Of a DNA stretch of 64,000 bases, positions 15,989 through 41,015 are shown one piece after another. Under the pieces are notes generated by a model. That model saw nothing but the letters and a program-made list of their open reading frames with translations. It was not told where the DNA came from and searched no databases. Numbering within the stretch: the first letter of the stretch is position 1; each line of letters begins with the position of its first letter. A program made the position numbers and the translations under genes. Location of the stretch: the NCBI RefSeq assembly GCF_004803695.1, contig NZ_CP039393.1, positions 2,046,001 to 2,110,000 of the forward strand, read 5' to 3'. Source of the DNA: Muribaculum gordoncarteri. GTDB lineage: Bacteria > Bacteroidota > Bacteroidia > Bacteroidales > Muribaculaceae.

Positions 15989-16931
15989 ATGAATACCTGC
16001 ACTAAAGTTTTCCTTCGTAAAAAGGAAATATCGGGCGACCGCATATCGCTCTACCTCGACTTCTATCCCCCAATCCGAAATCCTCACACCAACAGGCTCA
16101 GCCGCCGTGAGGGTCTGGGAATATATCTCTAGGGGCATCCGGCAAATGCCCGTGAACGAGAGTTCAACGCCTCCATGATGGAAAAGGCGGAGGCTATCCG
16201 TTGCCGTCGCTTCGAGCAGTTGCTCAACGAGCAGTTTGATTTTCTCGACAAGGAGAAACTGCGTATGGACTTCCTCGCCTACTTCAAGCAGAAGTGCCGT
16301 CAGAAATATCAGAAATGGGATTGCTTCTGCGCCATTTCACTATCTATTGTAAGGGCAAATGCACTTTCGGCGACCTTACTGTGGATTTCTGCAATGGCTT
16401 CCGCACATATCTTCTCTCCGCCCAGCGTCAGCGCAACAATGGCAAAGGGCCAATATCCCACAATTCTGCTGCGGGCTACTGGTCAACATTCCGCGCTCTG
16501 CTGAAAATCACCTATCAGGAGAAATATATCCGCGAAAATCTCAATGACTTTCTGGAAAAGATTGAGTGGAAGGAGGTCAAGAAGGAGTTTCTTACACTCG
16601 CAGAAGTCAAGCAGCTTGTCGCCACTCCCTGCAAGATACCCGTACTCAAACAAGCTGTGCTGTTCAGTTGCATGACAGGGCTACGAATCAGCGACATCCT
16701 GCAACTCTCATGGAAACATATCCAGATGGGTCAGGACGGAGGCTATCTAATCCGTCTCTGCACCGAGAAAACGGAAGAAGAAACGAATCTCCCAATCAGT
16801 GATGAAACACTGGCTCTGTGCGGAGAGCGTTCAGAAGGCCTTGTTTTCAATGGTCTGAAACGCCACATGGTCAACCATCCTCTGAAAGAGTGGATAAAGT
16901 CCGCGGGATTAACCCGACGCATCACTTTCCA
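15989..16931 (+). pseudogene. Tyrosine integrase of the outer element, 5' part (broken and split)
   Basis: The ATG at 15989 opens an arm-binding domain (MNTCTKVFLRKKEISGDRIS). The frame meets a TAG at 16130-16132, continues in the same frame to ~16320, then needs a one-base shift to carry on through HFTIYCKGKCTFGDL. The catalytic half keeps box I Arg (MTGLRISD). Homology ends at ITFH, codons 16921-16932, just where HxxRH should follow. The missing C-terminus is at 40848-41015. A 24-kb element is inserted at this point, and the gene also carries two further lesions. Confidence 0.88.
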
Positions 16932-17140
16932 TGTGAGAAGACATATCAAATTTTCTTTCTTGCTAAAATTCAAGCACTTGCAAATTTTTGCAGCTTGACA
17001 GGTAACGATTTAGAAACCAGCGAAATTCTGTGTTTCACTTCGTTTTGCAGTAATTCAAAAGAACGCTTTTCCTAAATGCAAAGGTAATATTATTTTTTGA
17101 ATAATAAACCTTTGCAGATAGTCAAATTCAATAAAATCGG

Positions 17141-18463
17141 CTATGGTTGCTTGAATTTATATTTAAGTCCATACTCTTCAAGTTTACTGTATAGTGCCGA
17201 CCTGCTTATTCCCAACAGTTCGGCGGCAAGGCTCCGATTGCCGTTCGCTTGTTTCAACGCACGCATTATCCGTTCCTTATCCTCTGCATCATTGCGCAGG
17301 GCGAAACTGACGGGTGAGGTCGGTTTCGTCACGGCAAGTTCCAGATGCTCTTTCGTTACAACACCTTCTTGCGCCTGCAATACCGCACCCATGATTTTCT
17401 GCCGAAGTTCCCGCACGTTGCCCGGCCATGTGTGGATCAGCAATGCTTTACGGGCTTCGGGACTGAATCCGCCCACATTACACTCCAGTTCCTTGTTGGC
17501 AATCTCACGGAAGAACTCTGCCAACGGCATAATGTCTTCCTGACAGTCACGCAACGACGGCACGCTTATCACGAAGTCGTGCAGACGGTAGAGTAAATCC
17601 TGCCGGAAACGCTTTTCACTCACTGCCGCCTCCAGATCCTCGTTGGTGGCGGCGATGATGCGGACATTGAAACTTCTGTCCGAATTGTCACCGACCGGGC
17701 GATAACGTCTCTCTTGTATGGCACGGAGCAACATCTGTTGGGTTTCCAACGCGAGGTTGCCCACCTCGTCCAGAAACAACGTGCCACCTTCCGCTTCATG
17801 GAAATACCCTTTCTTGGTGCTGTCTGCACCTGTAAACGCTCCCTTGACGTGTCCGAAGAATGCCGACGGCGCAAGTTCTTTTGAGAGTGAACCGCAGTCA
17901 ACCGCCACGAAGGGTTTGCCCGCACGTTTGCTCTTGTCGTGTAGGTAATGGGCGATATGCTCCTTGCCCGTGCCGTTCTCTCCGAATATCATCACACTCA
18001 TATCGGTAGCGGCTACCAACCTTATGCGATGCATGATTTTCTGAAAGGCGGAACCTTCACGGACGAACACGGGCATACGGCGGTGTCCCATCTGACGCTC
18101 CTTCTGTATGGAACGGAGAAGTGGAATGAGTTTGTCCTCTATCAGTTTTTTAGGTATATAGTCTATCGAACCGAGTTTCATGCTCTCCACGGCAGTATGT
18201 ACTTCGGCATAGTCGGTCATGATGATGAACGGCTGCATCTTTCCTTCCTTGCGCATCCAACGCAGCATGTCTATACCGTTGCCGTCAGGCAGGCGCAGGT
18301 CGGCAACTACTATGTCATTATCCGTTGCCTGTTGCAGATGTTTCTTCGCTGTCGATAGGTGGTAAGCTTTCACGGTATGGTAGCCCTCCCGTGCCAGCAG
18401 GTTGCAGACATATTCGCAATACACGATGTTGTCCTCCACCACGATTATTCTGGTCTTATCCAT
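17141..18463 (-). CDS. rteB: RteB-like sigma-54-type response regulator
   Basis: The 440-aa protein has a receiver domain with phospho-acceptor Asp55 (VVADLRLPDG), an AAA+ domain with Walker A GENGTGKE at 161-168 and the sigma-54 contact GAFTGA at 208-213, and a Fis-type HTH at the C-terminus (NRSLAAELLGISRSALY). This is the layout of RteB of CTnDOT, which switches on rteC and transfer functions. Its start overlaps the end of the rteA frame by 8 bp. It is full length, but its partner kinase is interrupted. Confidence 0.88.
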   Translation of the reverse strand: MDKTRIIVVEDNIVYCEYVCNLLAREGYHTVKAYHLSTAKKHLQQATDNDIVVADLRLPDGNGIDMLRWMRKEGKMQPFIIMTDYAEVHTAVESMKLGSIDYIPKKLIEDKLIPLLRSIQKERQMGHRRMPVFVREGSAFQKIMHRIRLVAATDMSVMIFGENGTGKEHIAHYLHDKSKRAGKPFVAVDCGSLSKELAPSAFFGHVKGAFTGADSTKKGYFHEAEGGTLFLDEVGNLALETQQMLLRAIQERRYRPVGDNSDRSFNVRIIAATNEDLEAAVSEKRFRQDLLYRLHDFVISVPSLRDCQEDIMPLAEFFREIANKELECNVGGFSPEARKALLIHTWPGNVRELRQKIMGAVLQAQEGVVTKEHLELAVTKPTSPVSFALRNDAEDKERIMRALKQANGNRSLAAELLGISRSALYSKLEEYGLKYKFKQP

Positions 18464-20765
18464 TTTCGTATTTTCTCCTTTCCTCTTTTGCCAGCCGGAT
18501 TATTTCCGCGCCCTTATTCAATACTGCGGTAACAGCATGGCTTAACTCACTTTCTTCCGGTATAGCCTTTCCATGAAGCAATCCGTAAAGTTCCCTCAGC
18601 GGTTGGTCGGCACGGAGTACCTCCCACGAGCTACGCAAGTGGTGTGTCAAGGCATCAAGTTCTTGCAGGTCGTTTCGCGTTGCCGCATCCTGCATCAAGC
18701 GCATTTCCTTTTCAGTTTCCGTTATCAGTTTCTCCAGCATGACGGCCTCATTGCCGTATGACAGCAAGGTGGATAAGTCCGGCTTTCCGTCCAGAGTTTC
18801 TTTTATGCCGCACTTGTCCGAGACCTCCATCAGCTCCGATATGGAGAACGGCTTGAACAGGCATCCGGCAAAGCCTTTTGCCAAAAGTTCCTCCGCATCG
18901 CAACTGCCCGAAGCGGTTGCCACGACCACGGGGATTATCTATGAATTGCCCACGTTGGACGAACGCAGAAGTTCCAGCAACTCGAAACCGTTTATACCGG
19001 GCATATTCAAATCTGTCAGCAGCAGATTATATTCTTTCCGGCGTAGCATCTCCATCAGTTCCGCCGCATCGGTGCAAGTATCGCAGTGTATTCCCTCTTG
19101 GGCGTACATCTCTTTCTGCATCAGGAGCAACACCTCGTCATTGTCGATGGCGATGACATTGAGGTTTCTGTCTTTTCTGTGAATATACGTCTGTATTACT
19201 TGCTCCGGCACATCATCAGCTTTTTGCATCGGTATTTCCACCATGAAACGGCTTCCTTTCCCTTTTTCACTGTTCAGTCTGATTTTTCCATGAAGCATCG
19301 TCACGATATTATGAACGATGGCAAGTCCAAGTCCGAAACCGTCCTTTGCGGCGGCATTTGAGAGGCGTTCAAATGCGTCGAACACATGGTGCTGTTCCTC
19401 TTCGGTCATGCCCGTACCGGTGTCCTCGACGGTCAGTGTCAACACTCCGTTGGTATAGTCGGAAGTCAGTGACACACCACCTTTCTCTGTGAACTTGATG
19501 GCGTTTGACAGCAGGTTGTTACCGATTTGAACTATTCGCTCTTTGTCGGTCAATACAACAGCATCATTCCCGTTCTTCATGGTCAAGGACAGTCCCTTGT
19601 TCATGGCAACGGACATGAACTCCGTTTCAAGGATGTGCGTGATTGCTGAAATTCTGCAAGGTTGCATTTTGGGCTGTTCCTTGCCGTTATCCAAGCGGAA
19701 GAAGTCCAGCAGAGTGTTGAGCATAGCCCGCATACGGTCGGAGGATTGTTGTATGCTTTGAAGGAAATGCACATTGTTCCCATTGCTGCACTCTTTTTGC
19801 AACAGTTCGGCATAGCCTGTTATTGCCGTCAGCGGTGTACGCAACTCGTGGGTAATAGTATATACCGCTTTCTTTCGGGAGGTTATGAGTACCTCATTTT
19901 GTTGCACGGACTGTTCCAATTGCCCTATCAAATCCGTTGTCTGGCGTTTGTATCGTTTGATGCTCTTTGCATCATGGTGTATGATGATATAAGAAATGAC
20001 CAACAGCAAAAGGACAAATCCCATCAAGCCGCCTATCTGCATAAATGATTTTTCACGCATGGCGGTTATCTCGGCTTCCCTGCTTTGTAAATCAGATTGT
20101 ACCTTCTTTTCGATTTGGCAAATCAATCCTCGCAGTTGTCTGTTAAGTTCGGCATTACGAGCCGCAAGACTGTCGGCTTGTTCCGACAACCGACGGCTTT
20201 GTGCTTTCTGTTCGCTGACCATGTTTCTATCGGGAGAACGAAGCGTAGTCGTTGTTGTCAATGGCTTCGTTTTCTCTTTTTTACCGAATATGCCCAAGAA
20301 TCCTTTGCGCTTCGGTTTCTTGGGCTGTTCCTGCACAATCTTCTGCACAATCACCGGTTCTTGGCTGGCTATCTTCCTGTTGATGGATTGTTGCTCATCC
20401 ATTAACCGGACAATCTGGAATATCTGCCGTTCCTTATACTCCAAAAGACTGCGCACGCTGTCAACACGCTCAATTTTGTGAGTTACATTGAAACTGCATA
20501 ATATACTGTCCAATGCAATACGTTGGGCATGGTAATTCTCCAAATCTGTTTCGTCCCAATCCAATATAGTTTCTCCCAACAAAGAGAACTCTATCAGTCG
20601 GATATGAATACGGTTTACATCCTTCCTGAATTCATTTATACGTCGATTGCCAACCTCCAATGCTTCCACTTCCTGCCATTCATGATGCCAAGTGTAGGCA
20701 ATACATCCGATTAACAATGCAATAAGTGTATAGCCGAAAGCGACCGCTTTCTGAAGATGTTTCAC
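18456..20765 (-). pseudogene. rteA: RteA-like hybrid histidine kinase with in-frame TAG
   Basis: The gene would encode 769 aa. It has two membrane helices (about 7-27 and 231-250) flanking a sensor region, an H-box (THELRTPLTAITGYAELL), an ATPase with NLLSNAIKFTEKGG and GFGLGLAIV, a receiver with LLLTDLNMPG, and an Hpt-like C-terminus (ALTHHLRSSW). A TAG at 18941-18939 stops the frame after residue 608, inside the receiver. The frame is otherwise unbroken (next residues IIPVVVATASGS), so CAG-to-TAG is the simplest cause. The truncated kinase lacks the end of the receiver and the Hpt domain. Confidence 0.87.
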
Positions 20766-21071: not shown

Positions 21072-23363
21072 TTAGTATCTGAATCTTGATGTATCTATTC
21101 CTTTTATCTCCTTTTTCTTATATCCGCCAAAACAATAACTGAAATGCAAAGTAAATGAACGTGAATAAAATCCGCTGTTCATATCCAAGTGTTGCCCCTT
21201 AAAGCGGACTTTTGTTGCAGGCATTCCTGTATCAAATATGTCATTGCAACGGGCTGATAAACTCAATTTGTCATTTGCAAAATTCCATTTTAATCCGGCA
21301 GTGAGATTAAAAATAGATTCTATATCAAATGTCCCTTGTATGACAGGAGTCTGTACATTCCCTATCAACTCGAAAGATAAATTCTTGTTTACTTTAAACG
21401 TGTTATCCAATGTGCCGCTAAATACCCATTTCCTCCGATTGAAAGGAATGTCGAAAAAATCATCACAGCGTTGGTGCATTTGCATTCCGACTAAGGAGAA
21501 TCGGGAATCCAGCCAGTTTCCTGCTTTAAAGGGTACTATGATATTTGCTCCCCATAGCTGCATATAGTTCCAGTTTGTATTTTTATAGATCAGTGCCAGC
21601 CTGTCGGTAGATTGATAGGCGGCTTGTGTGAAATAATCCGATGTATGCGTGAAAAACAGACTGAAAATATACTTCTTCATGAAGATATAACTTCCATTCA
21701 GATTATAATTCGTCATCGGCTTCAAATTCGGTGTACCCCACAATTCTGTATATCCATTAAGATAACTGACGGAAGACTGCATATCCCAATAACTTGGATA
21801 GGTTTTATCCGTAGATAATGACAATTGAAACAGATGTTCCGGTGTTTTAAAATAGGTCAATGATGCTTGTGGAAAGACTGCCCATTTATGATAATTGCCA
21901 ATCGTATAATACTCTCCTGTAGCAGAAACGGATAAAGATGTACCTGTTGCATAGTTTTTGCTCAACGACACATAAAAACTGGCAGTTTGTTCTCTCAGAT
22001 TGGAATATGTATTTTGTGTTTGAATGTCACCTGTCACTTTATCGTAAGTTTGGAAATCAAGATCTTTGGCAAATCGATAGGAAACTCCATAACCCAAATT
22101 CCATCCTTTGGATAAAGAGTGTTTCCCGTCTACATAAATAGAATAGCGGTCTATCTTTTGTCCGCCAACCATAGAGAAACTACTCTGATTTCCATTTTGA
22201 TAATCAGTATGTAAACATTGATTATTATTGGAAGTATAATAGGTATAGTCACCTCCTATTTCAAGACCGAATCCTGAATGATATTGCAATGTGACATTGT
22301 GCATTTGATTGTCAATATATTTATCAACATTACCGGTTTGGTAATTGCCTGATGTCCGGCTGTTATTATATTGGTCAGGGGTATAACTACCTGTGTAGGC
22401 AATATTGATATTGTTTTTATCGTTGAAATTATATTCAAAAGCGGCTCTAAGGTCATGCTTCCAATACTTGCTGCGCAACTGTTCATTTTGTGTGATAGAA
22501 TGGAGTTCTTCTTTTAGCGTATGCTTGGAATCAAGGTCTATGTACTCCATTTTTTTTACGTTATTTACTCCATACATTACATCAAAAGCCATTTTAGGAG
22601 TTGACAACCGAAAGTTCCCGTTCATTCCCCCGTCATTGAAGTATTGGTTTTTATAGTCAGCACTTATCTCACCCTGAAAAGAGTAGTCGTTTGAACGCTT
22701 TAAAACAACATTAATAGCCGCGCCCCGTACATGATATTCAGGAGGCGCACTGTACATCACTTCCACTTTTTCCACACGATTAACCGGAGTATTGCGCAAA
22801 ATCGTTTCAAGTTGTCCGGCATCCATTGTTGTTGGTTTGCCATTTAGAATAATCGTCAGTTTCCCGGCTCCTGCCAAAGTCAGTATTCCTCTCTCTTCTT
22901 GTACTCCCGGTATCTTTGTCAATGCTTCATAAGCATTGTTTACAAGTTGATTTTGGGTAAGGACAGCAAGATTATACCCTAAAAGTCCATTCTTCACTTT
23001 AACAAAAGGACGTTCTGCCTTTATAATAATTTCATCCAAAGCATAGTCTTTAGGTTGAAGTTGAATAGTTCCGACATCATTTCCCTTACCTGCCATTTGT
23101 TTGGTTTCATATAAAATGTGTTGTATTATCAAACGGTATTCTTCCTGTTGGCTATTAAAAACGAATATACCGTCAGTATTAGAGATGGATGCGGCTATAT
23201 AGGTCGAATCCATCGCTTGCAGAATAATAGTCGCTCCGTCTATCGGTAGTTGTTCGGCATCTATTATTTTACCGCTAATCATTTGCCCATAAACAGTCGT
23301 TTGGGAGCAAACGAACGATAGGAAGAAAAATGTAAGTACTTTAATTTTGCGTAACTGCATCAT
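21072..23363 (-). CDS. TonB-dependent-receptor-like outer-membrane barrel (PF14905 type)
   Basis: The 763-aa protein has a signal peptide (..VYGQ), a carboxypeptidase-like regulatory domain (ISGKIIDAEQLPIDGATI), a plug domain (NAYEALTKIPGVQEE; LNGKPTTMDAGQLETIL) and a C-terminal barrel ending in an aromatic strand. The plug and Gly-rich loop fit the PF14905 outer-membrane group, which lacks known substrates. The gene is followed by the small repeat lipoprotein and rteA, and preceded after 28 bp by a lipoprotein gene. It occupies the place of tetQ upstream of rteA in CTnDOT. Confidence 0.85.
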   Translation of the reverse strand: MMQLRKIKVLTFFFLSFVCSQTTVYGQMISGKIIDAEQLPIDGATIILQAMDSTYIAASISNTDGIFVFNSQQEEYRLIIQHILYETKQMAGKGNDVGTIQLQPKDYALDEIIIKAERPFVKVKNGLLGYNLAVLTQNQLVNNAYEALTKIPGVQEERGILTLAGAGKLTIILNGKPTTMDAGQLETILRNTPVNRVEKVEVMYSAPPEYHVRGAAINVVLKRSNDYSFQGEISADYKNQYFNDGGMNGNFRLSTPKMAFDVMYGVNNVKKMEYIDLDSKHTLKEELHSITQNEQLRSKYWKHDLRAAFEYNFNDKNNINIAYTGSYTPDQYNNSRTSGNYQTGNVDKYIDNQMHNVTLQYHSGFGLEIGGDYTYYTSNNNQCLHTDYQNGNQSSFSMVGGQKIDRYSIYVDGKHSLSKGWNLGYGVSYRFAKDLDFQTYDKVTGDIQTQNTYSNLREQTASFYVSLSKNYATGTSLSVSATGEYYTIGNYHKWAVFPQASLTYFKTPEHLFQLSLSTDKTYPSYWDMQSSVSYLNGYTELWGTPNLKPMTNYNLNGSYIFMKKYIFSLFFTHTSDYFTQAAYQSTDRLALIYKNTNWNYMQLWGANIIVPFKAGNWLDSRFSLVGMQMHQRCDDFFDIPFNRRKWVFSGTLDNTFKVNKNLSFELIGNVQTPVIQGTFDIESIFNLTAGLKWNFANDKLSLSARCNDIFDTGMPATKVRFKGQHLDMNSGFYSRSFTLHFSYCFGGYKKKEIKGIDTSRFRY

Positions 23364-24345: not shown

Positions 24346-24915
24346 CTATTTCTCTCCAAAAGTAATCTCCTTGCGAATACGGCTAAGATATGTTGGCGTT
24401 ATTTGCAGATAAGATGCCAATTCTTTAAGTGTGATGTTTTGCAGTATATCAGGGCAACACCTTAATAAATGGATATAATGTTCCTTTGCAGACAGACGAT
24501 ACATATTCAGAAAACTATCGTATGCCTGAATGAAAAATCCGTCCGATATAGCACTATGCAGCTTAGGTTCTTTCTCGAATAGTTCATCCACAATGTTTCG
24601 GTTACATACATAAACTTCAGAATCCTTTGCCGCTATAATATCTGCTGCAACAGGAGTATTCATCACCAGACTTGAATAATCACCTATCGGAGTATCACAA
24701 AATGAAAATCCGGTAATATGAATATTACCCTCTGAGTCTATCACAGAATACTTGAAATATCCGTGTTTAATGAATCCCCATACACATTTTGTGGTTTCTC
24801 CACGATGAAGAAAATATTCACCTTTTTTGTATGAGCGTAACTTACCCTCTTTGGTGCATAGTTCGCGCCAAAAGTTCAAATCAATTTTATCTATATAGAG
24901 ATTGAATTTATCCAT
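24346..24915 (-). CDS. Crp/Fnr-family transcriptional regulator
   Basis: The 189-aa protein has an N-terminal cyclic-nucleotide-binding-like beta roll (KKGEYFLHRGE; GDYSSLVMN) and a short C-terminal HTH (LKELASYLQITPTYLSRIRKE). The arginine and glutamate that contact cAMP in E. coli Crp are not evident, so the ligand is unknown. This subfamily of short Crp-like proteins is common in Bacteroidetes. It is divergently placed only in function: it lies upstream of the lipoprotein-barrel-rte run on the same strand, separated by the 24294-24319 palindrome. Confidence 0.88.
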   Translation of the reverse strand: MDKFNLYIDKIDLNFWRELCTKEGKLRSYKKGEYFLHRGETTKCVWGFIKHGYFKYSVIDSEGNIHITGFSFCDTPIGDYSSLVMNTPVAADIIAAKDSEVYVCNRNIVDELFEKEPKLHSAISDGFFIQAYDSFLNMYRLSAKEHYIHLLRCCPDILQNITLKELASYLQITPTYLSRIRKEITFGEK

Positions 24916-30399: not shown

Positions 30400-30407
30400 T
30401 GGATAGG

Positions 30408-31952
30408 TTATAACTTGGTGTAATTTCCGTGGGTGTTGCGGATGAAAAGCACTCCCTTTCTGTCTCTGAGAAACCTCTTGAAACTGCGCTCAGGCATACC
30501 GCATTTCCCGGCGATCGCCACACCCTCTGCGGTAGTGAAGCCGTCGGGAAGCTCCGAGAGAACCGAGAGCTGCATCTCAGTCAGGGCATCCTCGCTGATG
30601 ATGCCCTGCACCTTTGAGGCACTTATGCGAAAATACTCCGCAAGACGTATCGCCCTCTCCACCGTATCCACCTCTATCATTTTCTTTTCACTGCCGCACG
30701 CCCAGTCGGAGAGGGCCAGCAAGAGAGAAAAGCGGATAGCGTAGATTTCGAGTTTGCTTGCTATGGAGGTAAGGGTATCGCTGCCGTCAGCGTTGCAACG
30801 GTCGGTCTGCTCGTTCTGCCACTGATAGAGGCGGTCAAGAGCGTCCGATGAAAAAGGAACATCCTCGGATATTATTTCACCGTCTGCATCCACCTTGGGA
30901 ACAATGTCGATAAGCCGGGAAAGGATGCCGCGCCACTCTGCCGCGATGTCAAAAGAAGGCATCCGGCAGCACCGGTTCCATTTAGGCTTCGTCTGGTCGG
31001 ACGGGAATACATAGAGTATGCGCTCCATGAATCCGTTGGCGTTGCGGTTCCCGGCGGCAAGGTCGGTCAAAACCTTCGGCTGGATAGTTCCGATTACGCA
31101 AAGGAACGGATTGCGGATAAACACGCCGCTCTGACTGCCTTTGCGGTCGGACATGGCAACCTTGTGGTTGAACACCGACATCCAGAACTCCGATTCAGAG
31201 CCGTTGTTGTAGCGGTTGAAGTTCTTGACCCATCCGGCAAGCTCGTCATACATCAGAATCAGTCCACGACAGTTTTCCGACAATATGCGGTGAACCGCCT
31301 CGTTGGTCACATCCTGCATCATGAAGCGGATGCGGTGCGGCTCGACGGGATTGAGGTCGTAGCCGTTTGGAACACGTTCTTTCGGCGGCAGCTCCATCGC
31401 AGCATTGTAGCGTTTCAACGCCTCTGCGAACTGTGCCGCTTTCTCCGCGTCGTGGTCGATGAGCGGTTGCATGACATAACTCAGCGGATGGCTCTTGCAC
31501 ACTCCGGGACATCCGACAAGGGCAACGAAAAGAATAGCATATTCTTTCCATCCTGCCATAGCCTCGGCGTGATGGGTGTTGCCTATTACCGCCGCCATTG
31601 CCGAAAGCATCGCTCCAGCCATGTAGTCAACAGGGAAACCGAGAGTGGCGTTTGCCTCCTTGATGATTTCCTGTAATCTTGACGGCAGGACATCAATCGG
31701 GAACTGATTGGTTTTCTTGCTGTTGTCTGTGTCTGCAATCAAGCACTCGGAGGTTGACGGAGGTACAGACTGACTGTTCAGTCGGTCAGGAGCATGATTT
31801 GTCACTTCCTCATTTTCGTGACAAGTCACTTGTGTATCTGTGATTGCAGGTGTATCACTGACATCATTGGCTTTCTTTTTGACGGAGGTTTTCTTCTCAT
31901 TGCCTTTTGGCTTTGAGGCTGCCTTTACTGATGATTCGGTTTCTTTTTTCAT
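30408..31952 (-). CDS. DUF3987 protein with modified Walker A motif
   Basis: The 514-aa protein has a Lys/Ser-rich N-terminal tail (1-85) followed by the DUF3987 domain. The P-loop reads GCPGVCKSHPL rather than GxxGxGKS. A Walker-B-like LILMYDELAGW and a Arg-finger-like NANGFMERILYVFP follow. The family resembles the helicase/primase components of mobile elements and is assumed to act in replication or mobilisation. It is homologous to the protein at 43795-45156. The start overlaps the DUF3853 gene stop by 4 bp. Confidence 0.88.
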   Translation of the reverse strand: MKKETESSVKAASKPKGNEKKTSVKKKANDVSDTPAITDTQVTCHENEEVTNHAPDRLNSQSVPPSTSECLIADTDNSKKTNQFPIDVLPSRLQEIIKEANATLGFPVDYMAGAMLSAMAAVIGNTHHAEAMAGWKEYAILFVALVGCPGVCKSHPLSYVMQPLIDHDAEKAAQFAEALKRYNAAMELPPKERVPNGYDLNPVEPHRIRFMMQDVTNEAVHRILSENCRGLILMYDELAGWVKNFNRYNNGSESEFWMSVFNHKVAMSDRKGSQSGVFIRNPFLCVIGTIQPKVLTDLAAGNRNANGFMERILYVFPSDQTKPKWNRCCRMPSFDIAAEWRGILSRLIDIVPKVDADGEIISEDVPFSSDALDRLYQWQNEQTDRCNADGSDTLTSIASKLEIYAIRFSLLLALSDWACGSEKKMIEVDTVERAIRLAEYFRISASKVQGIISEDALTEMQLSVLSELPDGFTTAEGVAIAGKCGMPERSFKRFLRDRKGVLFIRNTHGNYTKL

Positions 31953-32335
31953 CGGCTACCTCCTTTCTTCTTCGGTCTGTCTTCCGCATTCAGCACGCCT
32001 ACGGCTTTGCCGTTGACAAGTCTGCTTTCAGCCCAGCTCAGCAACTCTGATTCCTTGAAGTGAAGCTTATTGTTGAATTTCCAGTGCGGTATGGTGCCGT
32101 TGCTCGTTTCCTTGTAGAGCTGCCCGATTTTCATGGGATAGCCGTTTTCGTTCAGGAACTCGAGTGCTTCGGTCACTTTCAGCCCATCGGGATCCCGCTT
32201 TTTTGATTTTGCGGAAGCGTTGGTGAGTGTCGCCAGCACTCCCGATTCAGCAAGGCAGTCCTTGACCGCGTCTTTCAGGAGGCGCTTCAGAACCTCGATG
32301 AAAGGAAGATTCAGGTAATCTGTAATTGTGTTCAT
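31949..32335 (-). CDS. DUF3853-like HTH protein
   Basis: The product is 128 aa from the ATG at 32335 (MNTITDYLNLPFIEVLKRLL); an upstream ATG at 32383 would add 16 residues. A central winged-HTH-like block (DGLKVTEALEFLNENGYPMKIGQLYK) ends in KLHFKESELLSW, the wing and tail of DUF3853 proteins, which accompany DUF3987 genes in Bacteroidales elements. Presumed DNA-binding. Translationally coupled to DUF3987. Confidence 0.75.
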   Translation of the reverse strand: MNTITDYLNLPFIEVLKRLLKDAVKDCLAESGVLATLTNASAKSKKRDPDGLKVTEALEFLNENGYPMKIGQLYKETSNGTIPHWKFNNKLHFKESELLSWAESRLVNGKAVGVLNAEDRPKKKGGSR

Positions 32336-33043
32336 TTGGATAGGGGGATTAGTGGTTTGGGGATTTGTCTTCTTCTCACACATCAGTTTTCGGATGATAA
32401 GTGATATGCCGTATGTTCAACATACTCTTGGTGGGTGTCGTCAGGTCATAGTGATAGCGTCTGTCAGCCCGATGACTACACCCGGAGGATTAAAGGCTGG
32501 CGGACACTGCAAAATTAATATCGGACTTGCGTCCTTCTGATGTGCGTAAAGGCGAATATCATTGAAATGTCGACGGACTATATGTTTTGGTTGCCCTTCC
32601 GGACGGGCAATAAAAAAGCGGGGCCGCGCCGATATGTCTTTCTAACATGCCTTTGGCGAGGTCTCGTTATTATGTTTTCAGTCCTTTCCTGATATGTCTC
32701 CGATTAATGAATAATCGCCCTTGTCGCAAGGGGTGTGGCAGGGGTGCGTCAACCGTCACCGCCCTGCCGGGTCGGTGCTTCGCGTTGCCGCGAGGGGTCA
32801 TGGCTACTGCCACCTAACCGCTTTGATATTTTTCCAACAAAAGAAAAAACGGAATTGTTCAGCGATGTCCGGTTTATTCCGGCGATTGCCGATGTGTGTC
32901 TTTCTTTCCTGACGGATATGATTCCGTCACGGCTGCGAAGTTACGAAACGGTTTCGATATATGCAAGTTTTTTGAACCCCGGAGGGCCAATCTGCGTCAT
33001 GAAGCCGTTTTTGAGAGCCTCAATGAAAGCAATATCCACGAAA
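32336..33043. other. Non-coding stretch with GC-rich hairpins
   Basis: I see no convincing gene in these ~700 bp. Short hairpins occur, such as TTGCCC/GGGCAA at 32591-32610 and GGCAGGG/CCCTGCC near 32738-32769. The GC-rich, repeat-bearing character resembles a replication or transfer origin. The plus-strand frame at 32735-33169 is the reverse of the Abi gene end and was not accepted. Confidence 0.4.
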
Positions 33044-33733
33044 TTAAATGGCATTTATTCGGTTGCAGACTTGCTGCACATGGTCAAGTCCATAAAGCAA
33101 AGAATGGCTGTCAATTCCCATCCACATAAACAGCTTATGAAGATTCTGATAAGCATTGAGGATATATGAGGTTCCGATTTGAGGCTGTCTTCTCGCAAAA
33201 CAGATAGGTTCATGGTGTGCTATTCGGTTTCGGAGGATATTGATACCGTCAAGTTCATTGAACATATAAGCATTGTTGTATTGCACCTCTGCCGATGAAC
33301 GAGGCTTGTTAGGGAATATTCGGAGAAGAATCTGCCCTGTGGCACGATACTGAGGATTGGCAAACATATATTTCCAGACTCCGAACTCCATTTCTGCAAG
33401 AAGTTTATGATGAGTGTATTCGCCAGTCCTGTTCAGACGGTTGAAAGCCTTGGTGATTATTCGCGCACTATCCCGGCAACTGGAAATATCGAATATGCCT
33501 CCCGCCAATACGGAATCACGTAGCCAGTTCTCTCCGAACCGGGTTGTTAGCTCGCGGTCAATGGCATTTCTTAACGCCACCTCGAAACAACTCAATAAAG
33601 TAAACACTTCCTGTGAAAGATGAAGATTCAACCGATAAAGCGACATGGCTTTTCGGGTGTCATTATCGCAGGCAGCAACATATCTGTTGAGCCTTTCCGG
33701 GGACAATATATTCTGAAAATCGGCGAATTTCAC
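33044..33733 (-). CDS. Abi-family abortive infection protein with HEPN motif
   Basis: The 229-aa protein starts at GTG 33733 and opens with LSPERLNRYVAACDND, typical of PF07751 (Abi_2/AbiD/AbiF). It contains FEVALRNAIDREL and the C-terminal RNRIAHHEPI, the Rx4-6H RNase motif of HEPN proteins. The family aborts phage infection, probably by cutting RNA; that activity is inferred for this protein. It is cargo between the integrase and the mobilisation genes. Confidence 0.85.
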   Translation of the reverse strand: MKFADFQNILSPERLNRYVAACDNDTRKAMSLYRLNLHLSQEVFTLLSCFEVALRNAIDRELTTRFGENWLRDSVLAGGIFDISSCRDSARIITKAFNRLNRTGEYTHHKLLAEMEFGVWKYMFANPQYRATGQILLRIFPNKPRSSAEVQYNNAYMFNELDGINILRNRIAHHEPICFARRQPQIGTSYILNAYQNLHKLFMWMGIDSHSLLYGLDHVQQVCNRINAI

Positions 33734-33898
33734 TTGCTTTACAATCTTTTATGAGCCAGAATTTGTTTTAATCAAAAGAAAGCACTACTTTTGCAGTGTT
33801 GATTCCCGGTAGCCCCTGACTCGTCAAGCTATCGGGTTTAGTTTTTTTGTATCTGCAAAGATAATCATTTTCATCGGATTGGGCAACAGAGAGAAAAA

Positions 33899-33925
33899 GG
33901 ACACCGGGTATCCCTCCCGATGTCC
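33899..33925 (-). terminator. Terminator of the nested-element integrase
   Basis: On the minus strand GGACATCGGG and CCCGGTGTCC form a 10-bp stem followed by TTTTTCTC, about 130 bp after the integrase stop. A second hairpin at 33808-33837 (CCGGTAGC/GCTATCGG) followed by a T-rich run on the plus strand faces the other way. Confidence 0.65.
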
Positions 33926-34055
33926 AACCACTAATCCGCGTCAGGATGAAACAATAACATGATGACTGCGAATCTTGATGCAAAGGTAGTGTTTTTCAGC
34001 CGTATGCACAACTCTATAACAACAGAAAGCGCCAAAGCACCGGAAATGCCATGGG

Positions 34056-35315
34056 CTATTTTGCCGTTTCCGTGTCAAACGCGACTTTTCCGAGTTTGTT
34101 TATGGCTTTCTGCTTCCGCTGGTCGATCACATGCAGATATTTCTCCGTCATCTTTATGCTGGCGTGTCCGAGAAGAGAGGATACTGTCTTTATGTCGGTT
34201 CCGGCATTCAGAAGATTTACGGCGAAACTGTGCCGGGCGCAGTGCCATGTGATGCTCTTCTTTATTCCGGCGTTCTTCACCCATCGGGCGAGATGTTTTC
34301 TCGCCGTACCCTTGTGGGGCAGATCGAATATTCTCTCCCTCGGGTTGTCATCATCCTTAGGCTGTCCTATCAGCTTTATAAGCTCATCGTTGAGCGGCGT
34401 CACGACTGCGGCATGTGCGCTGCGTCCCGCGCTTTTCTTCTGGTTGAACCTCATCACCATGCTCTCGTAATCGACATTGGCGAATGTCAGTTCTGAAACA
34501 TCGCAGTACCGCAGTCCGGTGAAACAGCAGAAGATGAATGCCCGCTGCACCTCACGGTGTTCGCCGTCATATCGGAACGCCGCGAGGGTGTTTATCTCTT
34601 TCGGTGTGAGAATCTCCTTCAGCATAATGTTTGTGTCGTACACGATGCGGATTCCACGGCAGGGATTCTTTTTTATCAGTTCTTCATCAACCGCATCGGC
34701 AAGCACCTTCTTGAACCAGTGGTAATTCTTTCGCGGCCCCTCTCCGGTGCATTTCTTCCGGAGATAGTTGGTGAATCCGAGAACCATGTCCGGAGTGACG
34801 GCATCCATCGGCAGGACATCCTTGTATTTTGAGAACTGTGGAGTTAGCTCAAGATACTCGATGAAGCGTGTCAGAGAATATTTGTAAGACCTGCGGACTG
34901 GCAGTGTGAACGCTTCGTTGTCCCGGTGTTGCCGGAAGTACTTGAGGAAGTTACTCTCCTTCTCCCTTTTCAGGCGGTAACCCTTTCGGTCTTCAAGCAT
35001 CTCCTGCTCTTTCTCAAACCGTATCTTCTCGGCGAGGGCGATGGTGTTCTTGTTCTGCTGCCGTTCCTGAGCCGAGCGGGGATGAACCCACACATACAGA
35101 TTAAGAGCCTCCTTCTTGCGCAGGTGCTGCACCTTGTATTTAAGTTTTCCTTTCATCGCCCCGGATTCATACACGACATGGTTGCCGTCATCGTCATAGA
35201 CGGGCGATTCGCTACGGCCGAGATAATACTCCAGCCATAGACTCGCGCGTCCGTCTGACATCTCCCTCTGGATGAGCTTGGGATTTTGTTTCTGTTTATT
35301 TGGCAGTCTGCCCAT
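34056..35315 (-). CDS. Tyrosine recombinase (integrase) of the nested element
   Basis: The 419-aa protein has an arm-binding N-terminus, a SAM-like core-binding domain and a complete catalytic set: Arg in FTGLRYCDVSEL, HCARHS for HxxR, LLGHAS for the second His, and Tyr in MTEKYLHV. It integrates and excises the element. It sits at the right end, about 100 bp from the TGGTGTACT repeats. Its retained box I Arg sets it apart from the two tandem integrases at 38-40.6 kb. Confidence 0.95.
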   Translation of the reverse strand: MGRLPNKQKQNPKLIQREMSDGRASLWLEYYLGRSESPVYDDDGNHVVYESGAMKGKLKYKVQHLRKKEALNLYVWVHPRSAQERQQNKNTIALAEKIRFEKEQEMLEDRKGYRLKREKESNFLKYFRQHRDNEAFTLPVRRSYKYSLTRFIEYLELTPQFSKYKDVLPMDAVTPDMVLGFTNYLRKKCTGEGPRKNYHWFKKVLADAVDEELIKKNPCRGIRIVYDTNIMLKEILTPKEINTLAAFRYDGEHREVQRAFIFCCFTGLRYCDVSELTFANVDYESMVMRFNQKKSAGRSAHAAVVTPLNDELIKLIGQPKDDDNPRERIFDLPHKGTARKHLARWVKNAGIKKSITWHCARHSFAVNLLNAGTDIKTVSSLLGHASIKMTEKYLHVIDQRKQKAINKLGKVAFDTETAK

Positions 35316-35681
35316 AATGAATTAATTTTGTGTTTGTGGAGCAAAGGTAATAACAGGTTGTGAGACACGAAAATCACCCACAACATCTATTAACAATCGA
35401 AATGGGCAAATGGTGTACTTATGGTGTACTAAATGCGAAAAAAGATACAATCAGAAGAAACTGAATAGAAAGCCTGATTTATCTAATATACTGATAGTCA
35501 CTGATAATAGTTATAACGGATTATATCGGTTTTCCCTATGAAAAGACATACCTTGCTGTGTCTTTGAGGACACAAAAATCCTCCGCCTGTCGGATTTGTT
35601 TCCGGGTGTACTCACTCATCTTGGGTATCGGTTAAGCCGATGAAGTGTATTCACCAGCCCAACCGACTTTCTGTAATCCCG
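35316..35681. other. Right-end region of the nested element
   Basis: The 366-bp gap contains the TGGTGTACT pair (35411-35432) and several AT-rich short dyads (ACTGATAGTCACTGATAATAG). It probably contains the right att site. No gene was seen. Confidence 0.5.
35411..35432 (+). repeat. TGGTGTACT direct repeat pair, right end of nested element
   Basis: TGGTGTACT at 35411 and 35422, followed by AA; it matches the pair at 25815-25836 in sequence, spacing and direction. Confidence 0.75.
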
Positions 35682-36149
35682 TCAGAGCTTGCGCCACTGC
35701 TCGATGTCGTTCCGATAGGTGTCGAGGTGCAGGCGGACGAGGTTTTCAATCAGCCCCGATGCGCTCATGCCCTTTCCTCCGAGGAAGCGGACAACCCTGT
35801 CGAGTTCGTCACGCACCGTCTCGCTGACGAACACGGGCTTGCGGTTGACAAGTTTCGGGACTTTCAGGTAGGTGGCGCGGTACTCCTCCAACGACAACCT
35901 GCGCTGCTTGCTGCTGACACGCTTCTGCAGCATTGCCGTTTTCTCGACCGCCTCACTTGACGGTTCATCCGCCATAGCGGTCTCCGTTTCCTCCGTAACG
36001 GTATTGCCGGGCAGTTCCAGCTCATCCGGCTCCAGACCGATACGTCTGTAGATGTCATTCATCGACTTGGGAGTGTAGGATTCCCTGCGTCCCATCTTTT
36101 CCACGATTTCACGAGCCTGCTGCTCTGTAATGTTTGGTTCTCTCTTCAT
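35682..36149 (-). CDS. DUF3408 conjugative-transposon protein
   Basis: The product is 155 aa from the ATG at 36149 (MKREPNITEQQAREIVEKMG). A charged linker leads to the DUF3408 C-terminal domain (YRATYLKVPKLVNRKPVFVS; ENLVRLHLDTYRNDIEQWRKL), a ribbon-helix-helix-like fold. These genes sit next to parA and mobA in CTnDOT-type elements. It is homologous to the protein at 46320-46817, which ends in nearly the same DIE.WRKL. Its presence with mobA supports a CTnDOT origin for the element. Confidence 0.88.
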   Translation of the reverse strand: MKREPNITEQQAREIVEKMGRRESYTPKSMNDIYRRIGLEPDELELPGNTVTEETETAMADEPSSEAVEKTAMLQKRVSSKQRRLSLEEYRATYLKVPKLVNRKPVFVSETVRDELDRVVRFLGGKGMSASGLIENLVRLHLDTYRNDIEQWRKL

Positions 36150-36691
36150 TGTAAAAAACAAATTGATTAAGTTATTAACTGTGGTCTTGGTAAACACCTT
36201 GACCGATTATCGGGAGCAAAGTAAGGTGCTTTAATACAGTCAGTCAAGCACTTGGATTCTCTTAGGCAATTTTGTGTGGTTTTGCATTATGGCGGTTGAT
36301 AAAGCGGTGAGGACTTCACCGTTTTGCCGGATGTATATGCCCGAAAGGGCAAAGACTCAATTGTAGGCGAATTTGAATTAAGTCCTTATTTTTCCCCTTG
36401 CCACCTTTCTATTTTTTAGAATTAAGAGGATAACCGCTGCCTCCAGCCAATGCCAACCTCTACCACCCTGTGCCACTTGCTGCCAGACCTGATTGAAACC
36501 ATTGCCGGATGCCGGATTATGTATTTCTTTGCAGGAGAAGGAATGATAGCCGCCAAAGGGAAGTCAGCATCCCGGACAATGACTGCCGTATCAGCGCAAC
36601 ACGCTTCCACTTTCGGGGAACCTATTGTCAGGTAACAGATTATATATTCCTTTGCGGCAAAAGAAACAGTAACAACTAAAAGAAAGACAAT
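36150..36691 (+). promoter_or_regulatory. Intergenic region with a duplicated promoter-like leader
   Basis: Two similar segments, GATTATGTATTTCTTTGCAG (from 36515) and GATTATATATTCCTTTGCGG (from 36639), each contain a CTTTGC -7-like box and lie upstream of the first Xis-like gene. The second is 33 bp before its ATG. A 61-codon frame at 36450-36635 has no family-like features and was not called. Confidence 0.45.
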
Positions 36692-37003
36692 ATGGAAATC
36701 GTATCAATCGAGAGAAAGACCTTCGAGGAACTGGTCGCCAAGTTCGACCGCTTCGTCAGCCGTATGGATGCCATCTGCCATCGTCACGGCGAAAAGAAAA
36801 TGAGCGAGTGGATGGACAATCAGGACGTGTGCCGGATGCTCAACATCAGCCCCCGAACCTTGCAGACGCTTCGGGACAACGGCACGTTGGCTTATTCGCA
36901 GATAAACCACAAGACCTATTACCGTCCCGAAGACGTGCAACGCATCGTTTCCATCGTGGAGGACAGGCGAAAAGAAGCAAAGTTCAAAGGCAGAACAATC
37001 TGA
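36692..37003 (+). CDS. Excisionase-like HTH protein (Xis2c/Xis2d type)
   Basis: The 103-aa protein has an N-terminal coiled segment (ERKTFEELVAKFDRFVSRMD) and a MerR-like HTH (WMDNQDVCRMLNISPRTLQ) with a Tyr-rich wing (HKTYYRPEDVQRIV). It matches in size and layout the small basic excision proteins encoded in the CTnDOT excision operon. It is followed after 46 bp by a homologous gene. The tandem integrases lie nearby. Confidence 0.82.
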   Translation: MEIVSIERKTFEELVAKFDRFVSRMDAICHRHGEKKMSEWMDNQDVCRMLNISPRTLQTLRDNGTLAYSQINHKTYYRPEDVQRIVSIVEDRRKEAKFKGRTI

Positions 37004-37049
37004 TAACCGAATAGAGTAATAACAATAATTCCACTAAATCCAAAGTAAT

Positions 37050-37355
37050 ATGAACGAACTGATTAACAAAGACAACGAGTGGATAATCCACTTCTTGGGC
37101 AGCCTTGACCGTCTGCTGGACAACGTAGAGCATCTGACCGCAAACTACCGCCCGACACTGAACGGGGAGCGTTTCTTCACAGACAAGGAAGTGTCGGCAC
37201 GGTTGAAAGTGAGCCGCCGGACGCTTCAGGACTACCGCAACGAGGGACGTATAGCCTACATTCAGTTGGGCGGCAAAATCCTCTACCGTGAATCCGACAT
37301 CGAAAGGATGCTGGCTGACGGCTACCAATCCGCCTACCGACTGAAGGCAACCTGA
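37050..37355 (+). CDS. Excisionase-like HTH protein, second of pair
   Basis: The 101-aa protein is homologous to the preceding one: an N-terminal helical segment (WIIHFLGSLDRLLDNVEHL), HTH (FFTDKEVSARLKVSRRTLQ) and wing (GGKILYRESDIERML). The two probably act together as directionality factors for the tandem integrases. A 22-bp hairpin 74 bp downstream likely ends the transcript. Confidence 0.82.
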   Translation: MNELINKDNEWIIHFLGSLDRLLDNVEHLTANYRPTLNGERFFTDKEVSARLKVSRRTLQDYRNEGRIAYIQLGGKILYRESDIERMLADGYQSAYRLKAT

Positions 37356-38098: not shown

Positions 38099-39319
38099 TT
38101 ATTTACTATTCTCTTTCTTTTCGCCAGCCGATATTTTCTTTCTCCGCTCCATCAGTTTGTCCATATCCTTGGAGATTTTATCGTCTGTTATCCGTGCATA
38201 TCCCTGTGTCGTCCTGATATTGGAGTGTCCCATCATCTTGGCGATGCTCTCAATGGGTATGTCCGCTGAAATCAGGAAAGTGCCGAAGCTGTGCCGACTT
38301 TGATGATAGGTCAAGTTATCCTCTTTTCCTATGGTTATTCCCAACTCGTGAACCTCAAACCATAGGGCATCACGGTTGGGAAGAGGAAACACGGGCTTCT
38401 CATCATCAGTTGTGTTATACAGCGACAATATCTGTTCCGCTATGGGATGTAAGGGTATGAACGCCTCCACTTTTGTCTTCTTGCGGTTGATGCGGATGTA
38501 GCGTCTGCCCTCCGCATTCGTCCCGATATGATGGGGATGCAGCAGTTGTATGTCTGCATACGCCAGTCCAGTCAGGGTCGAGAAGATGAAAGCCCGTCTT
38601 GCCAGTTCCATCCGCTTGTCATACATCGGTGTGGAAAGTATCTTCTTGAACTCATCACGGCTGATGTACCTGTGTCTTGCCTCAGGTTTCGTTTCATATT
38701 CCAAATCCTCGCAGGGGTTCACACGGATAATCTCCTTATCGACTGCAAGGTACAATAATCGGTTCAGCCAACGCAGACAATGGTTTGTTTGGGAAACTCC
38801 GAAGTTCTTGCATTTCTTCAAATGGGCTTTGTAGGACTTGCCGAAATCCTCCGTCACTTCTTCAAGAGGAATGTCCTTTTTCCCGGTTGACGCTATAAAG
38901 TCCGTCAGGTATTTCTGGTAGTACATTGAAGCCCGATAGGAAGAAGTGGAATCAATCTCTTCGGAATGTTTCTTCAACCGCTCACGTTCCCATTCTCCCA
39001 TTTGCAATAAGGTAGTCGGATGAATGTTGTTCAAGGATATGTGGTTTTTCAGCATTTCGGCACTGACCACGCCTTGCGATTTCAGTATCTCGGTGTAGGC
39101 TTCTTCCGTCAGACGCAGATATTCCCGTAAACGGTTGTTCTCCCTGATAATCTTTATCTCATTCTTCCTGCCGTTCCAGTCTTCTGGGCGGCAATAGATA
39201 CCTGTGCTTATGACTGTCTGCTTGCCGTCAATGGTTATACGGCAAAGTACGGCGGTCGTACCGTCAGTCTTGACTTTGCTGCGGTTGATATAGGGCAATA
39301 GTGAAAAAGTGCTTCGCAT
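38099..39319 (-). CDS. Tandem tyrosine recombinase, second of pair
   Basis: The 406-aa protein has an arm-binding domain, a SAM-like domain and a catalytic domain. HQSRHS (HxxR), MMGHSN and Tyr in TTQGYARI are present. The box I Arg is missing: the motif reads TGLAYADI. IntDOT of CTnDOT also lacks this Arg, so the change need not mean loss of activity. It follows its partner by 13 bp, so both are co-expressed. Confidence 0.93.
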   Translation of the reverse strand: MRSTFSLLPYINRSKVKTDGTTAVLCRITIDGKQTVISTGIYCRPEDWNGRKNEIKIIRENNRLREYLRLTEEAYTEILKSQGVVSAEMLKNHISLNNIHPTTLLQMGEWERERLKKHSEEIDSTSSYRASMYYQKYLTDFIASTGKKDIPLEEVTEDFGKSYKAHLKKCKNFGVSQTNHCLRWLNRLLYLAVDKEIIRVNPCEDLEYETKPEARHRYISRDEFKKILSTPMYDKRMELARRAFIFSTLTGLAYADIQLLHPHHIGTNAEGRRYIRINRKKTKVEAFIPLHPIAEQILSLYNTTDDEKPVFPLPNRDALWFEVHELGITIGKEDNLTYHQSRHSFGTFLISADIPIESIAKMMGHSNIRTTQGYARITDDKISKDMDKLMERRKKISAGEKKENSK

Positions 39320-39332: not shown

Positions 39333-40562
39333 TTATAGGGTGAGTTTGAAATCTTGGGTCGCTTCTATGAACTTGTCCATGTCCTCGAACAGTTTTTTCG
39401 GACTGACACGGGCATATACCTGAGTGGTGGAAATATCGGAGTGTCCCAGCATCCGACTGATGGTCTCGATAGGCACACCCGCTTCGAGCGTGATTAACGA
39501 GGCGAAACTATGCCTTGCCTGATGATAGCACAAATCATCCTTGATACCCGCCAGTGCAGCTAACGCCTTCATGTGCCTTCTGAGATTTGACCAGCGCAGT
39601 AAAGGAAACAGGGTGTCCCTTTCCTCACTGTGATACTTCTCAATCAGAACAATCGCTTCCGGCAACAGTTTTACACTGGCACGAAGTTCGTTTTTCTTTC
39701 TCCGATACTTCAACCACAAAGCCCCGTCCTCATCCGTACATAGGTTCTCACGAGTAATTGAGACAACATCTGCATAACAGACCCCGGTGTAACACCCGAA
39801 GAGAAACATATCCCTTGCCAATATGTGGGATTTACGGTAAGCAGGTATTTCCACATCACGGATTTTTTCAAACGATTCACGGCTCAATGCCCGTGGGGTT
39901 TTATCTGACTGCTTAGGCAGGGTGAAATGCTGGAAGTGGCTCCTGTCTGCATAACCTTCCTTATAAGCCAGACGGCATATCTTCTTCAAGATAGCAAGAT
40001 GATGGCGGACGGTATCTATCGCATATCCCTTGTTTTCCATGGCGAATGTCTGATAGTCGTGGATGAATTGTTCTGTAAGCTGCCCGAATGCCAAATCCTT
40101 GACCTTGTACTGATGCTCGATGAACTCGCCAAGTGTCAGGCGCATATAGTGATAGCCGGGATAAGTCCCTTTCGCACGGTCAATGCCAATACGGGCTTTT
40201 AGGTCGTCACAGACAACGTCCGTCATTCGCATGAGGGTCATTTGTGTTTCCATGCTGCCTTGAAAATGATTCTTCACATCGGTGGCATCGAAATCTACTT
40301 TACGGCTCACAAGATTGTCAAAGGCGTTGTTCACCGCCAACAGCAACTTCTCTATTTTGGCATTGGTTTCCACCGCCTCCCTGCTCTTGCCGTTCAGACG
40401 GCTTTCACGGGGATTCCACAATTCGGGTGTGCAGGACAGCTTGCAACCGAACTGCGCCATCGTGCGATTCACGGTGATACGTCCCATGATGGGAGCCTTG
40501 CCCGACTTGTCCAGTCCGCTCTTTTTGAGGTAGAGCAACACCTTGAATTTCACTACTTTCAT
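39333..40562 (-). CDS. Tandem tyrosine recombinase, first of pair
   Basis: The 409-aa protein has the same three-domain layout. HQARHS, MLGHSD and Tyr in TTQVYARV are intact. Box I reads YTGVCYADV, again without Arg. It lies 285 bp from the right border of the element, where integrase genes normally sit. The paired arrangement suggests the two act together as a heteromer or on different sites. Confidence 0.93.
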   Translation of the reverse strand: MKVVKFKVLLYLKKSGLDKSGKAPIMGRITVNRTMAQFGCKLSCTPELWNPRESRLNGKSREAVETNAKIEKLLLAVNNAFDNLVSRKVDFDATDVKNHFQGSMETQMTLMRMTDVVCDDLKARIGIDRAKGTYPGYHYMRLTLGEFIEHQYKVKDLAFGQLTEQFIHDYQTFAMENKGYAIDTVRHHLAILKKICRLAYKEGYADRSHFQHFTLPKQSDKTPRALSRESFEKIRDVEIPAYRKSHILARDMFLFGCYTGVCYADVVSITRENLCTDEDGALWLKYRRKKNELRASVKLLPEAIVLIEKYHSEERDTLFPLLRWSNLRRHMKALAALAGIKDDLCYHQARHSFASLITLEAGVPIETISRMLGHSDISTTQVYARVSPKKLFEDMDKFIEATQDFKLTL

Positions 40563-40847
40563 ACGCTTATATTTTTAAGTGCAAATTTACTTGCCATATA
40601 AGCGTCCCTTGATATGCAAAACACTGTGTATGAGTGCAAACAAAACGGTGAGGATTTCTTTTTATCGCTTTCCGTTACCTGTTCCCGTTTCGGTAACTGC
40701 CCGGCTAACGGTTTGGTAACTGAACAACCTCAATATTCCGTTGTGGTTTGCATTTTCTCAACTTGGCAGAATACTGAAATGTCGCTTATTTCTAACGGTT
40801 TACGTTTAATTTTTACCTGTTCGCTGTCGCTTGCTTTGCCGTGTATA

Positions 40848-41015
40848 TTCCACACGATGCGCCACAGCTTCGCCACGCTCCTTGCCGCCAACGGCATCGA
40901 CATCCTCACAATAAGCAAGATGCTCACCCATAAGAGCGTCAAAAATACACAGATCTACGCGAAAGTCGTGGATGAACGGGCAAGAGAGGCAGCCAACGTA
41001 ATATCGTTGAAATAA
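40848..41015 (+). pseudogene. Tyrosine integrase of the outer element, 3' part
   Basis: From TTCCA onward the frame reads FHTMRHSFATLLAANGID, then ..SKMLTHKSVKNTQIYAKV and ends in ISLK. This supplies the HxxR, second-His and catalytic-Tyr boxes that are missing from the integrase at 15989-16931. The reading frame upstream of 40848 is not integrase-like. Joining the two parts at TTCCA restores ITFHTMRHSF in frame. Confidence 0.9.

Follow-up and report, generated by a model that had tools for sequence, protein, structure and literature searches.

Why should a tyrosine recombinase gene be interrupted within the very codons of its catalytic box? The question is raised by a stretch of 64,000 nucleotides from Muribaculum gordoncarteri (assembly GCF_004803695.1, 3.43 Mb; NZ_CP039393.1, positions 2,046,001 to 2,110,000), referred to here at its full length as the window, whose genes find their matches mostly in Muribaculaceae and other Bacteroidales. 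In this window an integrase gene lying 3' of mnmE has been divided at its HxxRH box, between 16930-16932 and 40851, and the two pieces lie 23.9 kb apart. The comparisons described below point, with a probability of roughly 0.92, to a 14.1-kb element carrying two recombinases, Int1 and Int2, which uses the DNA of the HxxRH(S/T)(F/Y)A box in other tyrosine recombinase genes as its attachment site (attB). At the level of sequence, they show the exact site, phase and orientation of insertion, the range of targets, the selectivity of the motif and, in a few cases, the composition of the two junctions, attL and attR.

A catalytic box interrupted by a composite insert

The 5' part of the gene (15989..16932, + strand), recognised by Pfam and by its relatives, runs up to the His of the box, covers positions 2-135 of PF00589 and reads ATCACTTTCCATGTGAGAAGACAT from 16921. 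The 3' part (40851..41012, + strand), recognised in the same way, encodes HTMRHSFATLL...Y, covers positions 126-171 of the same domain and reads TATATTCCACACGATGCGCCACAGC from 40844. The 5' part, used as query against 198 genomes of the same family, yielded 29 related loci (L141-L169), and in 25 of these both pieces lie in a single open reading frame (ORF) and meet on the same His, a test that required no artificial joining of the window pieces. This confirms the proposal of the initial annotation that one integrase gene had been split at TTCCA. The closest full relatives (L142-L146) are 85-93% identical over the 5' piece. Among the four exceptions, L152 and L162 are split by elements of the same family as that in the window, the ORF of L169 ends early, and that of L141 (99% identical) stops 24 residues into the 3' piece.

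Joining the two halves at TTCCA had also been expected to restore the frame. The phase does fit, but a frameshift near 16324 remains in the 5' part (residues 1-116 and 117-329 of a relative fall in different frames), so that the window integrase is broken twice. Similarly, homology to the target ends at the left junction as had been noted, but the box is not lost there: after TTCCA the element supplies AGA CAT, and the 5' ORF still reads H-V-R-R-H and continues through 17 element-coded residues to a stop. The suggestion that the insertion disables its host holds in so far as the catalytic Tyr codon has been separated from the 5' part; the loss of activity itself is a prediction, and this particular gene is also frameshifted.

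A different explanation of these junctions is that the split integrase, or a fusion with an element end, has acquired a regulated function as a dominant negative protein or a switch, so that the element would serve to control its host and the insertion would represent domestication. The retention of HxxRH at attL together with a short element-coded tail, and the presence in the window of an ORF that enters the 3' part in frame from inside the element, are in keeping with this idea. However, differences in the left tail are only mildly commoner at third codon positions (194, 236 and 285 at positions 1, 2 and 3 over 51 pairs), and in many relatives stop codons break up the right-hand frame; we consider such a control function improbable. 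On these same observations, neither the left-end tail peptide nor the right-end fusion ORF was supported as a conserved protein.

The insert had been described as a single 24-kb element resembling CTnDOT, a description that is not supported. It is a composite of a 14.1-kb core and a separate 9.8-kb element, with MobV and DUF3987 genes, nested within it, so that three elements are stacked at this locus. Among the 19 ORFs scanned between the junctions (shorter ones fell outside the scan), Pfam recognised no conjugation genes, and no resistance gene was seen. The same 14.1-kb element, about 99.9% identical, lies in another integrase gene of Muribaculaceae bacterium Isolate-013 (G001), where the part corresponding to window 25762-35554 is absent.

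Relatives of the element enter the same codon

The preference for the HxxRH box, which had been offered as a conjecture, is strongly supported by the insertion points of related elements and by the motif test described below. Relatives were counted when their Int1 was about 60% identical or more, a clade directed at leucine-rich repeat (LRR) genes being kept apart, and 77 of the 82 readable insertions lie at the same codon of an HxxRH box, in the same phase and orientation. The targets in this count were identified as tyrosine recombinase genes, not individually as genes of mobile elements. A scan of genome contigs gave 78 loci, 48 of which were read for HxxRH (the others comprise ten of the LRR clade, ten of an AT-rich clade, seven distant loci, L077 and L081-L086, and three unusable ones, L078-L080). 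With the window included, 46 of 49 attR ends open with a recombinase box and tail in the same phase and orientation, and a hidden Markov model (HMM) of the tail, built from 26 recombinases of the window and its own genome, matches 45 of the 49 at E <= 6e-7. In the three exceptions (L013, L018, L023) the target is not an integrase.

Two sets collected later served as tests. The order-wide search found a match in 16 of 393 genomes and 19 loci besides the window, from which three duplicates (L170, L178, L179) were dropped and two loci of 49-50% identity (L183, L187), not at HxxRH, were placed outside the 82; 13 of the 14 new loci are at HxxRH (12 by script, L186 by eye). On viral contigs, 27 loci were found, including six with too little upstream DNA (L195, L196, L198, L202, L206, L211), four of the LRR clade (L213-L216) and one distant locus (L217), and all 16 readable ones are at HxxRH (14 by script at E <= 3e-11, L191 and L209 by eye). 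From 20 named plasmid and phage records, H2, H3 and H11 were examined (H1, H4-H10 and H12-H20 were left out); two of these are at HxxRH by eye (OY726014.1 and NZ_OY725960.1, a Bacteroides finegoldii plasmid record) and the third, a phage clone record, is not.

Clustering sorts the targets into 58 groups at 90% identity and 31 at 60%, a few of the tails being short. Together with a matching site in each of 99 family genomes (see below), this diversity supports the earlier suggestion that such an element would find a home in almost any other integrative element. One of the targets (L047) is itself related to Int1, with 43 of 62 residues identical. No core xer gene was recognised among the targets, no search aimed at xer having been made, and L028 is Xer-like by eye. 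In ten tails chosen to include doubtful ones, Pfam found PF00589 in five, four of them over the cut-off. On one viral contig (L191:1-1060), Int1 is 100% identical and the tail of the target integrase looks Firmicutes-type by eye.

The left ends were read in the same manner. There were 52 matches, of which the 30 given as loci were read together with the window, L123 being dropped as its match is short of the end; in 25 of the 30 informative left ends the element is preceded by the 5' part of an integrase (the best of 735 shuffled controls scored 6.4 bits). Left ends that are 99.5-100% identical stand before four different integrases (window, L103-L105) which, with the nearly identical 14.1-kb copy in G001, suggests recent movement of the element.

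A DNA motif at the target

The consensus of the target site is CAY-N6-MGNCAYWSNTWYGC, and the 23-bp motif CAYNNNNNNMGNCAYWSNTWYGC is matched exactly in 37 of 49 attR sites. The genome of the window has 18 exact matches, 17 of them in PF00589 places, against none for a reversed-pattern control. They include the 3' part in the window, Int1 itself and positions 2197935 and 2970430, which are XerC/XerD-like by size and score, and the eighteenth lies in no integrase frame. Across 99 genomes of the family, 508 matches to the motif compare with 48 to the reversed pattern (all matches, in integrases or elsewhere, with totals transcribed by hand from the result table), and at least one match is present in each of the 99.

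The exceptions to the integrase rule are informative in this respect. L013 has the exact motif although it lies outside any integrase, and L018 and L023 have two mismatches each, where the background for two or fewer mismatches is 7e-5 (358,150 positions). As these non-integrase sites still match the motif, the enzyme seems to read DNA, with the identity of the gene following from that. These figures also bear on the simplest alternative, namely that a short common core such as TTCCA is all that the recombinases require, and that hits in integrases reflect permissive, integrase-rich mobile regions. TTCCA is indeed common to both window junctions, and mobile regions are dispensable. However, a short core would not confine 77 of 82 insertions to one codon, phase and orientation rather than anywhere in integrase genes, nor would it predict 0, 2 and 2 mismatches to a longer motif at the three exceptional attR sites, and this alternative is judged very unlikely.

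Crossover on the variable codons

The last bases of the element at attR are TTCCA, or a version of it particular to a clade, and target sequence resumes near the third position of the His codon. At attL the order is reversed: target sequence extends as far as the His codon and is followed by the element's AAGACAT or a variant form, again encoding R-H. Between these two element ends lie about six bases, spread over the two variable codons of the box. In the window, attL (16930..16944, + strand) reads CAT GTGAGA AGACAT, that is, the His codon, crossover bases with a foreign pair V-R, and the element-supplied R-H codons, and attR (40848..40873, + strand) consists of the element's TTCCA followed by the target, with the box CACACGATGCGCCACAGCTTCGC and the target's own pair T-M. 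The origin of each pair can be judged from relatives of the target. L141 reads HTMRH, as does attR (other relatives read HSMRH). Similarly, five of five relatives of the G001 target (79-99% identical over the 5' part) read HGLRH like attR, where attL has I-S, and the two best relatives of the target in G006a (about 40% over the 5' part) read HCARH like attR, where attL has L-S. Three of the four cases thus show the target's own codon pair kept at attR and a foreign pair at attL, the fourth (G006b) fitting either way. The foreign attL pair was probably brought from an earlier host. The closest of the five G001 relatives, L160, is an intact counterpart of that target (99.4% identity in the 5' part, 98.1% in the 3' part) and so represents the empty site. 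Pairing of both ends within single loci by pattern gave two pairs only (L041, L043) and allows no ruling on coupling.

The attL bases TGTGAG (window 16932-16937) recur in the box of a different integrase of this genome (G000:C1:546659-546681). This integrase is a possible former host of the element, and the match could be due to chance.

According to the mechanism proposed here, Int1 and Int2 would recombine a box-like attP of the element with the box in other integrase genes. The DNA that they read would span about 23 bp, in which a crossover region of about 6 bp is flanked by CA on one side and MGNCAYWSNTWYGC on the other; this region would coincide with the two variable codons that separate the catalytic His and Arg. 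On integration, the target's own codon pair would stay at attR and the pair brought by the element would come to lie at attL. Since its 5' part is parted from the Tyr codon, the target integrase should be inactive until excision, which would restore it, and the host element would be immobilised in the meantime. Transfer between cells might occur by mobilisation through the MobA-type protein of the element and a helper, which is a guess.

Several observations weigh against this account. Five of the 82 sites are not clear integrase sites (L013, L018, L023, L171, H11), and six others were counted by eye (L035, L186, L191, L209, L219, L220), L035 being weak at 10.5 bits compared with 14.4 for the best of 980 shuffled controls. 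The attR His codon reads Tyr in L186, L219 and L220 and Gln in L209. At the other end, five of 30 left ends do not follow an integrase (L106, L115, L119, L129, L131); L106, L115, L129 and L131 share genomes with L018, L023 and L013 and may partly be the same insertions. The evidence from G006b is divided, attL being matched by the best relative (HVARH, 46% over the 5' part) and attR by another, which reads HQSRH. Because the motif itself came from the target sites, the genome test speaks for its selectivity rather than for the exact bases that the enzyme uses. No excision or circular form of the element was seen, and the core has no relaxase, the sole one found (MobV) sitting in the nested element.

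Related clades and the question of advantage

Copies at unrelated sequences had been named in advance as the evidence that would count against a preference for the box. Such copies do occur, as the five sites above and as two related clades, and the other 77 of the 82 insertions fit the box. In the first clade, at about 61% identity to Int1, the insertion points lie in BspA-type LRR genes, at an IPNSVTxIG repeat (L051-L060, L213-L216). Nine of ten of its targets match PF13306 at E <= 3e-5, eight of them over the cut-off, the tenth being a tetrapyrrole methylase gene, and the targets on viral contigs (L213-L216) are of the LRR type by eye. The second, about 55% identical to Int1, uses AT-rich sites (ten loci: L063, L064, L066-L072, L075), several of which have GAGTTA upstream of TTAACATAA. 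In a quick tree these clades form separate groups with support of 100, and the branching order of the HxxRH groups is not settled. A DNA core common to the LRR and HxxRH sites was sought, and the junction-aligned TG-N-C/Y at the same distance is too little to claim one.

It has to be asked what the element gains from its choice of target. One proposal is that it profits from suppressing competitors, which would be locked in place, over and above finding an abundant and cheap site. The split does part the box from the catalytic Tyr codon, and the targets include a relative of Int1. However, an abundant, conserved and mostly dispensable site explains the choice equally well, and the LRR-targeting clade disables no competitor, which makes an advantage of this kind rather unlikely. 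A broader picture is that of a hyperparasitic lineage of elements in Bacteroidales for which the recombinase box is a universal landing site and a removable lock on other elements and on its own kin. The target would then be restorable on exit, at most with a changed pair of residues, because the crossover covers variable codons, and the related clade on the BspA-type LRR motif would mean that evolution can redirect such recombinases to conserved motifs in protein-coding sequence. We put this picture forward tentatively, at somewhat less than even odds.

Gene content and surroundings

Following attL, the core element encodes a sigma-54 response regulator (17141..18463, - strand) and a hybrid sensor histidine kinase (18456..20765, - strand), which we take to be RteB-like and RteA-like, respectively; their domain architecture, and the domains only, fits the RteA/RteB type. 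The kinase gene forms two ORFs in the window (18929-18942) and a single ORF in L133 and L135. Further genes, all on the - strand, encode an outer-membrane beta-barrel or TonB-type cargo protein (21072..23363), a cNMP-binding (Crp-type) regulator (24346..24915), a MobA/MobC_2 mobilisation accessory protein (25174..25704) and, beyond the nested element, a DUF3408 protein (35682..36197). Two small HTH_17 proteins (36692..37355, + strand) are candidate excision factors. The tandem pair consists of Int2 (38099..39319, - strand) and Int1 (39333..40562, - strand), both matching PF00589, both whole and both inside the element, Int1 being 100% identical in L009 and L010. The nested element (about 25762..35554), absent from L009 and L133, has a 7-bp repeat at its ends and carries genes for the MobV relaxase (28383-30008), a DUF3987 protein (30408-31952), an Abi_2 protein (33044-33733) and its own integrase (34056-35315).

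By eye, other copies keep the tandem recombinases and the DUF3408, MobA-type and regulator genes and differ in cargo. The copy in Odoribacter laneus carries a HerA/mad8-like protein (L138:6855-9911, PADLOC matches), possibly encoded by a defence gene.

The probable left attachment site of the host element is the 3' end of mnmE (14716..14734, + strand), as suggested by a break point on a second contig, and a search of the window for another copy of the mnmE repeat gave none. One end of this second contig (G000:C2, 95,236 bases, loci L097-L101) duplicates window 30962-14717, and window 14730-1 recurs further along it, so that mnmE and the host element are separated there by about 59 kb of other DNA. 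It looks as if some of the population carried a further element in tandem at the 3' end of mnmE, unless the contig is misassembled. Its copy of the left junction was rejected as an independent insertion, since it represents the same locus by an alternative path. A transposase-like ORF lies in a 1.7-kb repeat present at window 10359-12063 and at L102:14538-16242, the two copies being 99.9% identical and about 63 kb apart in the same genome.

Relation to known systems

CTnDOT is characterised by RteA/RteB two-component regulators and by variable coupling bases at its junctions, and the present element resembles it in regulator architecture and in variable junction bases. As far as the cited passages describe the CTnDOT family (PMC5729914, PMC8138268), the element differs in its target, in its two integrases and in having no transfer or resistance gene seen. 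An integrative and conjugative element (ICE) inserted in a CTnDOT-like element appears in one report (PMC6907783).

The closest known systems are streptococcal integrative and mobilizable elements (IMEs) that target conserved ICE genes. The excerpted accounts describe integration in the conserved ICE genes traG, maff2 and snf2 or in the ICE oriT (PMC5357655, PMC5704250), and there, as here, attB is a conserved sequence in other mobile elements that a site-specific integrase recognises. However, the gene-targeting streptococcal IMEs are described with serine integrases and genes of one ICE superfamily, in contrast to tandem tyrosine recombinases and the catalytic box of recombinase genes in 31 target groups (60% clusters). 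Regarding canonical IME features, an own integrase is present (Int1, Int2) and an own relaxase is lacking in the core.

The 'Tyr duo' mobilizable transposons (MTns) MTnPi1-3 of Prevotella intermedia also have two tandem tyrosine integrases (PMC4755523) and, from the portions cited, a short att with a variable spacer. However, this att is given as TTAC or TTGC, N5, then AA or A/G A/G (PMC5704250), which is not an integrase box such as CAY-N6-MGNCAYWSNTWYGC, and most MTn types are described with relaxase and primase genes (PMC4755523) that are absent from the 14.1-kb core; MTnPi is set apart here by description only. CTnPi2-a lies in an integrase gene, noted there as a single case (PMC4755523). 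In archaeal suicidal integrases, as portrayed in the extracts used (PMC8371274, PMC5495485), integration likewise splits an integrase gene, which is the element's own, whereas here Int1 and Int2 stay intact and another gene is split. Targeting of conserved sites in other elements is already known, and the integrase catalytic box appears new as a preferred target: no report of it in this role was found among the matches listed in the open-licence PubMed Central (PMC) literature, which is not proof of absence.

Implications for gut Bacteroidales

Few stretches of integrase genes are as conserved as the preferred target, and all 99 related genomes examined accordingly offer a candidate landing site. 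A parallel logic is found in inteins and homing elements, with conserved codons serving for recognition and, in the present case, variable codons for the crossover. One mobile element could in this way switch off others, which offers an explanation for the nested elements of gut Bacteroidales and carries the warning that apparently degenerate integrases may have been split by insertion. The family also offers natural recombinases with clade-specific target motifs.

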